From positions 1 to 41,550 of the forward strand of contig JAQXUH010000082.1 in the NCBI GenBank assembly GCA_029219885.1: DNA of 41,550 nucleotides, given 5' to 3'. The stretch comes from Eubacteriales bacterium. Lineage in GTDB: Bacteria; Bacillota; Clostridia; Oscillospirales; Acutalibacteraceae. The notes beneath the pieces were generated by a model. The model saw only the letters and a program-made list of their open reading frames with translations, did no database searches and had not been told where the DNA came from. How positions within the stretch are numbered: the stretch's first letter is position 1; each line of letters opens with the position of its first letter. Positions 4,754 to 10,415 of this stretch are shown here, piece by piece. The position numbers and the translations under genes are program-made.

Positions 4754-5332
4754 TCAGTTCATTACTCCAAAGAGTGCTTTTGTTCCGTTAATAATTTTTT
4801 GGGTACGCTTTGTCATAATTTCAGGAGAGTCTTTCATACCGCCCTGAATCCAGCAGATAATAACGCCTGATATTCCGTAGCTGAGAAATTCCGCAGCCAT
4901 AGTTTCATCGGAATCGTCGTCGCCGACAATAGAGCCTTGTAGCTTAATGCTCTTTATAAGAGGCTTGACGTAATCGTATGCGATTTTAGTAATATAGCGG
5001 GAAAGCTCTTCTGTATTTATCTTAAGAGAATTTTGGTAAAACTTCTTTTCACTACTGATTGTGGAGAACAAATCGAAAATCTTCTCATAAGCGTTATCAA
5101 GCCTGAAATCAGCGATAAAAGGATTGATTAGTTCCTCGTAAACAACCCAATCGAGAAGCTCGTATTTATCATTGAAGTGATAATAAAAAGTCTGTCGATG
5201 AAGTCCGCATTTAGCCGTAATGTCGGAAACTGAAAGCTTTTCAAACGATTCGTGCTCCATCAGCTCTTTAAGTGCCACGGCCAGTTTTTGCTGTGTGGCA
5301 TAGGAGCAGCCAAGCTTATTATTTTTCGGCAT
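4754..5332 (-). CDS. TetR family transcriptional regulator
   Basis: 192 residues. The first 60 form a TetR DNA-binding domain: helix-turn-helix around residues 36-56 with the signature CGLHRQTFYYHFNDKYELLDWV. The remaining two-thirds is a helical ligand/dimerisation domain resembling the DhaS-like branch. The start follows an AAAGGAGG site. It precedes the pyruvyl-transferase-like gene by 13 bases, so it may control that gene and itself. TTGTATA motifs surround its promoter (separate entry). The ligand is unknown. Confidence 0.85.
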   Translation of the reverse strand: MPKNNKLGCSYATQQKLAVALKELMEHESFEKLSVSDITAKCGLHRQTFYYHFNDKYELLDWVVYEELINPFIADFRLDNAYEKIFDLFSTISSEKKFYQNSLKINTEELSRYITKIAYDYVKPLIKSIKLQGSIVGDDDSDETMAAEFLSYGISGVIICWIQGGMKDSPEIMTKRTQKIINGTKALFGVMN

Positions 5333-8522: not shown

Positions 8523-8557
8523 TATAATCCCTCTTCCATTAAATAATCGTTATGTAT

Positions 8558-8820
8558 AAAAAAAAAACGCCTCTCTGCCCTAAGGCAAAGAGACGATAAT
8601 AACCGTGGTACCACTCTTTTTCGTTTTAATAAAAAACGCACTTTATGTACTGACATACACTATCCTGATAACGGTGGAGACCGTCCGTACTTACTTAAAT
8701 TTCTGTACGGCCACTCAGAGAGGATATTCCGCTTTAACCCGTATTGACTCGCACCCACCGTCAACTCTCTTAAATCAAAGATAAAACAGACATTGTTCTC
8801 TTCAACGTGTTAATATTAAG
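8558..8820 (-). ncRNA. T-box leader upstream of porGDAB, probable isoleucine (AUC) specifier
   Basis: In the minus-strand RNA, CCACTT just after the expected start pairs with GAGTGG to close stem I. Inside it AGAGA pairs with UCUCU and the specifier loop strand reads GGAAUAUCC. Counting six bases back from the GAG of the lower stem, as in the known glyQS T-box, gives AUC (8723-8725), an isoleucine codon. GAGTGGTACCACGG at 8603-8616 is the T-box sequence; its UGGU bulge suits a tRNA with discriminator A. The terminator is CGTCTCTTTGCC/GGGCAGAGAGGCG (8568-8595) followed by ten T. AAAGAG ahead of the T-box pairs with CUCUUU of the terminator arm, giving the antiterminator. A one-base shift would read UAU (Tyr), so the amino acid is likely and not proven. 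Confidence 0.85.
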
Positions 8821-8827
8821 TGGTAAT

Positions 8828-8856
8828 ATAATAATACTTTAAAATCGTTTTGTCAA
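8828..8856 (-). promoter_or_regulatory. Promoter of the T-box leader and porGDAB
   Basis: Minus strand TTGACA (8851-8856), 17 bases, TATTAT (8828-8833). The -35 overlaps the TGA stop (8853-8855) of the upstream gene, so the two units abut with no separate terminator between them. Confidence 0.85.
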
Positions 8857-10415
8857 GATTTTTTTGTTTTTACAGAAACATATGTTGAAAAATCAGAGTT
8901 TTTGTACCCTTTTCTGTAGGCCTTGACCTTATAGTAGTAGGTTTTGTTTGATTTTACAGACTTATCCTTAAAGGTGTTTTTACTGCTGCTGACAGTAGCA
9001 ATTTTAGTATATTTGCCGTTTTTTGATGTGCTGCGGTAAATATAATATCCACTTGCGTTTGAGGCCTTATTCCATTTCAAATTTACAGCATTACTGCTTT
9101 TTGCGGTAATTTTAGGCTTGGAGGGTGCCGACGCTTTGCCGACAGTAACGTAAACGGCGTCCGACGCAACAATTCTGCCGTCAAGAACAGCTACTGCATA
9201 AACCATACCCGACGCAGTTTTAGTGTAGGAAAATTTATAGGAATAAGCATTTTTAACACTTTTACCGCCGATATAAGGCATACCTGATGAATAGTAAATT
9301 TTAGCACCGCTTATATTAGTGGCGATTTTTACATTTTTGCCGTCGTTCACATCGGAAACGGAAATATTTACACTGCTTCCCCTCTTTTCGTCACAAAGCT
9401 GACTTAACTTAAGAGGAACGACAACATCTACAGGGTTTTTATTAACACTTCTGTAAATATCAGCAGCCGACTCAAACAAACAGTAAAGCTTTCCGCCCAA
9501 ACAGTAGGTCTGCTGAAGCATAGGAGGACAGGCAAGAATATTATCAAAAGTCTTGTTGCCTGTCTGCTCGTCAAATGTATAGGTGTAAAGATATGAACAG
9601 TAAATAGATTTGCTTTCGCTTCTGCCATAGGACACGGAAACAAAAAGTCTTGTTTTCTCTTTATAATTAGAAATAGTAATTCCCTGAGTATATGCAGGAA
9701 GATAGAATTTATACTGATACTTCAGGCTGTATGTTTTGTTTGCACTATCATATGTGGGAATATAGCAGTAGGCAGAGCTTGAGCCGCTTGAATTAAAGCT
9801 TGTGAGATATATTCTGCCGTTTCTGTACGTAACACCTGACGCAGACGAAATTTTAACATCCGAAACAGACTCTGAAACTGAATAGTTCACTCTGATAAAA
9901 GGACTGTTAAAGCTGAGATATCTGTAAAAAGAATCAACCGAAATAACGCCCACAGCACTTCTTGTAGCCTTAGCTATAAGAATAACTCTGTTAGCCAAAT
10001 CGTAAGTGATACCGCCTACGTGATAGGAATCGGGAAGAATAAGGGTTTTGACTAAATTCTTGTTATTATCAAGTACATATATAACAGACCTTGCATTTTC
10101 GTCGCTGTCATAGGCAGTTATAAGAGTGAATTGGTCAACGGTGCACATTGCCTGAGGAACCATTGTGGGTACAGAGGCATAGCATTTGTATTCCTTATCA
10201 TAAGAAACGGTATTGACAAGTCCCGGAATATAAAATGCTCCGTCGGTAATTTTCCTTGAAAATTCGCTGTACTGAGCAAGAGATGTGGTAAAGTCTACAC
10301 CGGGAACATTACCTGTTGTAGTTTCCAAATTAGACAGAGAATAGGCGTTAAAAGGAAGTAAAAGTGATATTATAATTGTTATGCTTAAAAGAAATGATAA
10401 TATTTTTTTCTTCAT
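8853..10415 (-). CDS. Secreted protein with chitobiase-like and fibronectin type III domains
   Basis: 520 residues with a clear signal peptide (MKKKILSFLLSITIIISLLLPFNAYS). Residues about 40-340 form a beta-rich region of repeated blades (for example QFTLITAYDSDENARSVIYVLDNNK), perhaps a propeller. Residues about 345-425 resemble the CHB_HEX_C-type beta-sandwich (KIYYSSG...AVAVLDGRIVAS). Residues 428-518 are a fibronectin type III domain (APSKPKITAKSS...GYYIYRSTSKNGKYTKIA). No LPXTG or membrane anchor is visible at the C-terminus, so it is released or held by other means. Enzymatic function is not evident. It sits alone between groEL and por; its stop overlaps the por promoter. Confidence 0.7.
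   Translation of the reverse strand: MKKKILSFLLSITIIISLLLPFNAYSLSNLETTTGNVPGVDFTTSLAQYSEFSRKITDGAFYIPGLVNTVSYDKEYKCYASVPTMVPQAMCTVDQFTLITAYDSDENARSVIYVLDNNKNLVKTLILPDSYHVGGITYDLANRVILIAKATRSAVGVISVDSFYRYLSFNSPFIRVNYSVSESVSDVKISSASGVTYRNGRIYLTSFNSSGSSSAYCYIPTYDSANKTYSLKYQYKFYLPAYTQGITISNYKEKTRLFVSVSYGRSESKSIYCSYLYTYTFDEQTGNKTFDNILACPPMLQQTYCLGGKLYCLFESAADIYRSVNKNPVDVVVPLKLSQLCDEKRGSSVNISVSDVNDGKNVKIATNISGAKIYYSSGMPYIGGKSVKNAYSYKFSYTKTASGMVYAVAVLDGRIVASDAVYVTVGKASAPSKPKITAKSSNAVNLKWNKASNASGYYIYRSTSKNGKYTKIATVSSSKNTFKDKSVKSNKTYYYKVKAYRKGYKNSDFSTYVSVKTKKS

Follow-up and report, generated by a model that had tools for sequence, protein, structure and literature searches.

Transcription-terminating T-boxes are represented, for example, by the leaders of ileS and of ilv-leu operons. 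Leaders of this type combine a stem I that carries an AUC codon, stem III, the UGGU sequence, an antiterminator, and a terminator, and their targets are normally synthetase, transporter, or ilv genes. The leader considered here, found in a window of 41,550 nt (the whole stretch of DNA that was analysed), has the same set of elements. Its target, however, is an operon for a 2-oxoacid:ferredoxin oxidoreductase, porGDAB. As for the enzyme, ferredoxin-dependent carboxylation of propionate to 2-ketobutyrate is known biochemically from several anaerobes according to the available parts of PMC7476758, which cite Buchanan 1969, Sauer 1975, Eikmanns 1983, and Monticello 1984 for propionate-to-isoleucine activity and suggest that part of 2-ketobutyrate synthesis may instead proceed by a formate-lyase route. 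In C. thermocellum, deletion of Pfor4 (Clo1313_1353-1356), by its description a multi-subunit PFOR-annotated complex like that of the window, removes branched-chain fatty acids (available portion of PMC13011478), and thus a complex with this annotation can act on branched 2-oxoacids.

According to cmscan, the T-box family RF00230 is the sole Rfam family above its gathering score in the entire window, and the match covers the model in full (positions 1-219 of 219). The first-pass annotation, which had placed a complete T-box before porGDAB at 8558-8856 and named this covariance-model search as its check, is thereby borne out: a terminator and four por genes follow the match, and the proposed span runs from the -35 box through the U-run of the terminator (Table 1). 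The promoter scan alone does not rise above chance (1 site observed, shuffle mean 1.4); the site lies directly upstream of stem I, which is a fitting place. The terminator is more distinct, with 1 observed against a shuffle mean of 0.2 and a fold of -20.9 kcal/mol (z -7.5) that none of 200 shuffles equals. By itself the antiterminator stretch gives a weak fold (-7.0 kcal/mol, z -1.8, with 13 of 200 shuffles equally low), and when both are folded together the terminator is favoured, as expected for a T-box without tRNA. Because the segment CGUCUCUUU is common to the antiterminator and the terminator, the two are mutually exclusive, and the leader thus has both the UGGN sequence and the alternative folds typical of T-boxes. 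The riboswitch itself is an ordinary member of its family.

Table 1. Features of the leader and operon in the window (positions of the forward strand)
Feature	Position	Strand	Details
Sigma-70-like promoter	8828-8856	minus	TTGACA 8856-8851, 17-nt spacer, TATTAT 8833-8828; 11/12
T-box leader RF00230, stem I to antiterminator	8586-8814	minus	135.3 bits (gathering score 93), E 4e-30
Helix under specifier loop, 5' strand GAGA	8797-8800	minus	covaries with 8718-8721
Specifier codon AUC (isoleucine)	8723-8725	minus	followed by C8722; register from other T-boxes and helix covariation
Helix under specifier loop, 3' strand UCUC	8718-8721	minus	pairs with 8797-8800
T-box sequence UGGUACC	8607-8613	minus	UGGU is the partner of the tRNA acceptor end
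Intrinsic terminator	8558-8595	minus	12-bp hairpin 8595-8568, then ten U
Probable ribosome-binding site of porG, GGAAGAGGG	8529-8537	minus	role assigned by eye
porG, gamma subunit, 190 aa	7950-8522	minus	TIGR02175 216.1 bits (cut-off 81.1)
porD, delta, ferredoxin-type subunit, 100 aa	7635-7937	minus	TIGR02179 84.9 bits (cut-off 60.05)
porA, alpha subunit, 393 aa	6452-7633	minus	PF01855, PF17147; NF040682 495.9 bits (below cut-off 550)
porB, beta, TPP-binding subunit, 313 aa	5497-6438	minus	PF02775; NF008819 336.6 bits (below cut-off 405)

At an E threshold of 0.001 seven T-boxes are found in the own genome, and their specifiers fall into a common frame: AAC (aspS), AUC (por), UUC (pheS), UGC (cysE), CUC (leuA), ACC (thrS), and UGG (trpE). 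Those of por, trpE, and leuA were read by eye, and the target names come from N-terminal sequences as read rather than from a family search. The wider calibration set, several members of which were also read by eye, puts AUC in register with T-boxes of pheS UUC, thrS ACC, valS GUA, cysE UGC, leuA CUC, and trp UGG. AAC, an asparagine codon, is the specifier of the aspS leaders read (L001, L020, L220, L226, and others), which suggests that this enzyme also charges tRNA-Asn. When TBDB assigns a specifier, it gives priority to bases 2-4 counted back from where the bulge ends (available parts of PMC7778990); at this place the window has AUC (8725-8723), with C as the next base.

For comparison 38 por leaders were collected, of which 35 are distinct after removal of three duplicates; two more leaders described below, L085 and L088, stand outside this count. 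AUC is present in 35 of 35. On its 3' side 29 leaders have C and 6 have A, and C also occupies this place in some related pheS leaders (L028, L034, and L166); on its 5' side 34 have U and one has C, so the neighbouring frames are not constant. In the four-pair helix beside the codon, 135 of 136 cells are paired across 34 leaders, whereas 1000 partner shuffles average 121 and never exceed 127, kin rows being counted many times in this test. The remaining leader, L055, was left unparsed (AAGA:UCUU by eye). The combinations include GAGA:UCUC (19 leaders), GGGA:UCCC (9), and AAGA:UCUU, CAGG:CCUG, and UGGG:CCCA (1 each). These compensatory changes, together with the other T-boxes of the same genome, fix the frame and provide strong evidence that the specifier is AUC, isoleucine. 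The best-fitting codon had thus been read correctly, and the specifier loop holds an isoleucine codon instead of one outside the branched-chain family.

Among 60 genomes of the genus, own included, 39 have a nearly full-length PorG and one a partial one; of the other 20, 12 have distant matches only (about 20-33% identity) and eight have none. The AUC leader precedes por in all 30 genus loci read, which are the 30 best-scoring. In five further genomes (G006, G007, G013, G022, and G035) T-box places lie directly upstream of PorG places, as judged by coordinates only, and G062, G066, G077, G082, and the partial PorG locus are left out of the leader count. Exclusivity was assessed in nine congeners of 97-100% completeness with 68 T-boxes at E up to 0.001, for all of which the specifier context and first gene were read by eye (30 as search loci and 38 as fetched stretches). 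AUC appears in 4 of the 33 T-boxes of four por-bearing congeners (G008, G025, G071, and G078), each time before porG, and in none of the 35 T-boxes of five congeners without por (G005, G028, G029, G033, and G063). The latter read GUA (valS), UUC (pheS), UGC (cysE), CUC (leuA and CstA-like), ACC (thrS), UGG (trp and others), and AAC (aspS/asnS). Among the 68 T-boxes AUC thus occurs only before por, and the contigs of the own ilvA, ilvC, and ilvD (C46, C55, and C79) carry no T-box at E up to 0.001. This confinement, along with the recurrence of the leader before por, ties the operon to isoleucine.

Several other T-box loci were seen in passing. In two of the por-less congeners (L271 and L272, i.e., G005:C29 and G028:C19) a T-box with CUC, read by eye, precedes a CstA-like transporter gene, and its Rfam score of 77-78 bits is below the gathering score. 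A CUC T-box also precedes a LeuA-like gene (about 480 aa) in L153-L160 (e.g., G001:C8 and G031:C72), followed, where the stretch reaches, by a large gene starting MKLSFSTKGW or similar. These loci belong mostly to congeners without por and ilvC (G001 has ilvC, and G007 has por and ilvC). G061 has a 435-aa LeuA-like gene 318 nt after porB (L161:5353-6660) and then an apparent GntR-type regulator; a similar pair in G021 lies on a contig other than the por contig.

Beyond the 60 genus genomes, the best 80 of 572 confirmed por loci of named genomes were searched for T-boxes. A motif screen found 8, and a profile scan with Rfam raised this to 10 of 80, although more distant leaders may be missed; all 10 read AUC. 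Five of them (L069-L073) either cluster with genus rows in the tree or duplicate leaders of the genus, and L089 (127.6 bits) is also placed among genus rows. Two loci come from Lachnospiraceae MAGs: L115, with 98.2 bits, and L147, which stays under the gathering score. L085, from Faecalicatena contorta ET52, reaches 104.5 bits with an unusual T-box sequence (UGGUUGCGG). L088 is weak, with AUC, a degenerate T-box sequence, and no Rfam match over the gathering score. No T-box was detected in the other 70 of the best 80 loci (in eight of these the upstream stretch is <350 nt long), and the link of the enzyme to isoleucine is therefore not general. L083, with a weak profile match (15.3 bits, E 8.8e-5), was counted among these 70; just upstream of its por genes lies a Clostridiales-1 RNA (RF01699, 146 bits, L083:143-309). 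The nearest named records are MAGs titled Eubacterium, Eubacteriaceae, or Clostridia; to judge from the names of the isolates, their sources include rabbit and goat.

The PorG+PorA tree has 94 rows, 36 of them with a T-box, and was built by a quick method with SH-aLRT support only; it excludes L093, L136, L137, L141, L146, and L148 (<300 nt upstream), rows without full PorA or PorG, and exact duplicates. The T-box label requires four changes on this tree, and well-supported branches force all four. A first tree (100 rows, 34 with a T-box), in which L085 and L088 were labelled T-box-less, required two. The simplest reading of these branches would be four separate gains of the AUC T-box before por, and three would be expected if the weak L088 were set aside. 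An older presence with many losses, or transfer, may be the alternative. Conservation of the leader in relatives, which had been proposed as a check, is thus found within the genus and extends to other lineages.

The four genes encode a four-subunit 2-oxoacid:ferredoxin oxidoreductase: TIGR02175, TIGR02179, PF01558, PF00037, PF01855, PF17147, and PF02775 all exceed their cut-offs, and POR, ferredoxin, POR_N/PFOR_II, and TPP domains are distributed over the gamma, delta, alpha, and beta subunits. The class of the enzyme is less sharply defined. PorA had been described as pyruvate-type in appearance, and the best scores of alpha and beta indeed belong to the NCBIfam pyruvate synthase models, which remain the nearest family; both scores, however, are below the equivalog cut-offs. 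Models of 2-ketoisovalerate oxidoreductase (VOR) score lower still, namely, 337.7 bits for NF006232 (cut-off 646), 140.1 for NF005507 (399), and 287.3 for NF008818 (405). The best solved match for the window PorA and PorB (321 and 260 bits) is PDB 9bt4, a multi-subunit pyruvate:ferredoxin oxidoreductase. In the loop after RALSGP the window PorA has N, in contrast to W in 9bt4 and F in single-chain pyruvate enzymes. This substrate-side loop has N or H in 102 of the 112 sequences scanned, the pattern leaving the other 10 unmatched. As the same residues are common to T-box-less relatives, they are no marker of isoleucine-controlled enzymes. An extended por operon was considered and rejected, since the gene after porB varies among the congeners read and relatives share no common neighbour. 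Downstream of the operon the window encodes a DhaS-like TetR regulator at 4754-5332 (113.9 bits, short of the cut-off, 129); on the upstream side, at 8853-10415, it encodes a 520-aa protein that weakly matches fibronectin type III.

Computation thus yields the leader, codon, terminator, operon, conservation, and recurrence. In the reading we favour, to which we give a probability of about 0.55, por is under a switch controlled by tRNA-Ile and serves the synthesis of an isoleucine precursor, most likely the conversion of propionyl-CoA to 2-oxobutyrate. The transcription-terminating T-box would sense uncharged tRNA-Ile through its AUC specifier and UGGU. During isoleucine shortage the tRNA would stabilise the antiterminator, the terminator would not form, and porGDAB would be transcribed. 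PorGDAB would then make the precursor by ferredoxin-dependent reductive carboxylation, most probably forming 2-oxobutyrate from propionyl-CoA and CO2, and the ilv enzymes encoded by the genome could carry this product on to isoleucine. We infer the tRNA response, the direction of the reaction, and the substrate. As for direction, a starvation-induced switch implies, by established T-box logic, a biosynthetic role, and a biosynthetic step is expected here because a T-box switches genes on in starvation.

The strongest competitor, a tentative second choice at perhaps half that likelihood, keeps the same switch. In it the substrate of PorGDAB is 2-methylbutyryl-CoA and the product of its carboxylation 3-methyl-2-oxopentanoate; transamination then gives isoleucine, and branched-chain acids of the gut are thereby salvaged without ilv enzymes. 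This was the proposal of the first-pass annotation, and its isoleucine T-box, four-subunit enzyme, and conserved leader all hold; the ilv pattern, however, fits 2-oxobutyrate better. Isoleucine is indeed formed from 2-methylbutyrate in rumen organisms (available parts of PMC2812497 and PMC7356843, citing Robinson and Allison 1969), and C. thermocellum needs its four-subunit Pfor4 for branched-chain fatty acids; yet Pfor1 and Pfor4 together account for about 80% of Pfor activity on pyruvate, so Pfor4 is not confined to branched chains (available portion of PMC13011478). The N or H after RALSGP, as opposed to W or F in solved pyruvate enzymes, would also suit a different substrate, but T-box-less relatives have it too, and a carboxylase of general branched-chain specificity would also work for valine and leucine.

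The two substrates differ in what else they demand: the 2-oxobutyrate route needs ilvC and ilvD, and the 2-methylbutyrate route bypasses both. The own genome has ilvA, ilvC, and ilvD, and it is among the 34 of 40 por-bearing genomes (of 60 in the genus) with all three over cut-off, a count that led us to reject por as a general replacement of the standard pathway. Among the 20 genomes without por, 8 lack all three genes, 6 have all three, and 6 are mixed. The 8 genomes lacking all three, which would need a bypass most, have no close por. They may, however, represent one branch. For the 39 genomes at least 90% complete, the 29 with por have ilvC in 26, ilvA in 26, ilvD in 27, and all three in 25, and the 10 without por have all three in 5, none in 4, and a mixture in 1. 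With kinship ignored, the Fisher p for association with por in these genomes is 0.057 for ilvC, 0.016 for ilvA, and 0.028 for ilvD, i.e., the association is weak. In these counts, ilvD split or cut by contig ends (G018, G021, and G024) and the ilvA of G067 (357.7 bits, cut-off 378.75) are scored as missing, and the incomplete porG of G021 is scored as present. The genomes behind L089, L115, and L147 have ilvC in all three cases and ilvA in two (none over cut-off for L115).

Since the own genome has all three genes and por is missing where all three are lacking, a 2-oxobutyrate synthase fits better than a bypass, and the pattern modestly favours propionyl-CoA over 2-methylbutyryl-CoA as substrate. 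In two genomes, G030 (98% complete) and G036 (92%), por and ilvD are found but neither ilvA nor ilvC; unless their assemblies have gaps, these two fit 2-methylbutyryl-CoA better. One enzyme doing both reactions is also possible. In addition, por is dispensable, since all three ilv genes occur in five por-less genomes of at least 90% completeness; most por-bearing genomes, having ilvA, already own a source of 2-oxobutyrate. The citramalate route was rejected as another source, with CimA (TIGR00977) over cut-off in none of the 60 genomes; where the fetched stretches show a T-box before a LeuA-like gene, the specifier is CUC (leucine).

In two T-box-less loci of the best 80 (of 572), porG is preceded by a gene whose best family, below curated cut-offs, is methionine gamma-lyase (L092:4777-5970 at a distance of 31 nt and L095:524-1717 at 37 nt). 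This arrangement suggests an operon for the conversion of methionine to 2-oxobutyrate and on to propionyl-CoA, and such a neighbour, if it produces 2-oxobutyrate, would suit an enzyme acting on 2-oxobutyrate.

A distinctly less probable explanation is that of an ordinary pyruvate:ferredoxin oxidoreductase, converting acetyl-CoA to pyruvate or the reverse, placed under amino-acid-starvation control with isoleucine as a proxy. PorA and PorB are indeed nearest to pyruvate-type families, most of the best 80 (of 572) relatives have no detected T-box and no common neighbourhood, and L117 has an acetate/propionate kinase gene 34 nt upstream. Chance recruitment would, however, have had to find an isoleucine codon repeatedly, in 10 of the 10 T-box-bearing loci among those 80 and at four places of the tree, which is unlikely. 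Moreover, the own genome encodes, in a 1180-aa frame, a single-chain PFOR homologue with 33% identity to PorA in the matched part that could act as its pyruvate enzyme. Very improbable is an oxidative enzyme making acyl-CoA from isoleucine-family 2-oxoacids for lipid primers or energy, the direction in which C. thermocellum Pfor4 is proposed to run during synthesis of branched fatty acids (available portion of PMC13011478), because a T-box switches its genes on at amino acid shortage, the opposite of what a step consuming isoleucine precursors would require.

A specifier in another frame, either UAU (tyrosine) or UCC/UCA (serine), is equally hard to sustain. tRNA-Ile is expected to have A as discriminator base. 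ARAGORN finds no tRNA-Ile, tRNA-Phe, or tRNA-Cys among the 30 tRNA loci of the own assembly, in which the discriminator of tRNA-Tyr is A. Pairing with the T-box sequence is regular for Thr (UGGA/U73), Trp (UGGC/G73), and Leu (UGGU/A73), and the Asn T-box (UGGU, tRNA-Asn G73) requires a wobble; given this case in the same genome, the UGGU of por alone does not exclude tRNA-Ser(GGA), which has G73. UAU is found in 34 of 35 por leaders, and three frames are possible in principle according to the available parts of PMC7778990. However, AUC alone is invariant, the preceding frame reading UAU or CAU and the following one UCC or UCA, and the helix register sets AUC at the codon place of the calibrated T-boxes. 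In TBDB, furthermore, 1% of the tyrosine specifiers are UAU, and 99% of the isoleucine specifiers are AUC (same parts of PMC7778990).

A leader of this kind was not found in the open-access literature searched; subscription reviews and TBDB tables may list single leaders. The excerpts retrieved for T-box, isoleucine, and ferredoxin oxidoreductase together contain only a leuA T-box of Geobacter, and in those of clostridial papers naming both a T-box and pyruvate ferredoxin oxidoreductase the two are not linked. The main text of the TBDB paper (PMC7778990) has no 'ferredoxin', and the text of the Pfor4 paper (PMC13011478) no 'T-box'. What is new is the target and its repeated recruitment, and both, like the exclusiveness in the genomes examined, are unexpected; the carbon-dioxide-fixing route to isoleucine is old biochemistry. 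We see about even chances that the AUC T-box is the sign of a dedicated, regulated route to isoleucine by CO2 fixation in gut Clostridia, to which por would have been recruited several separate times, and that such an operon encodes the ferredoxin-dependent isoleucine synthesis whose activity has been known since 1969. A T-box codon acts as a genetic label of purpose, here that of a por complex serving isoleucine, and the AUC leader may provide a means to tell biosynthetic from fermentative por copies in genomes of gut bacteria. Which enzyme carries out ferredoxin-dependent carboxylation of isoleucine precursors has been doubted for some organisms (available parts of PMC7476758), and the leader points to a concrete candidate operon for that route, including the one in Faecalicatena contorta ET52 (L085). 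Among the closest known systems is the 2-ketobutyrate:ferredoxin oxidoreductase of anaerobes, which performs the same reaction as the preferred reading; whereas it is known as an activity, here there is a candidate operon with predicted control by isoleucine.
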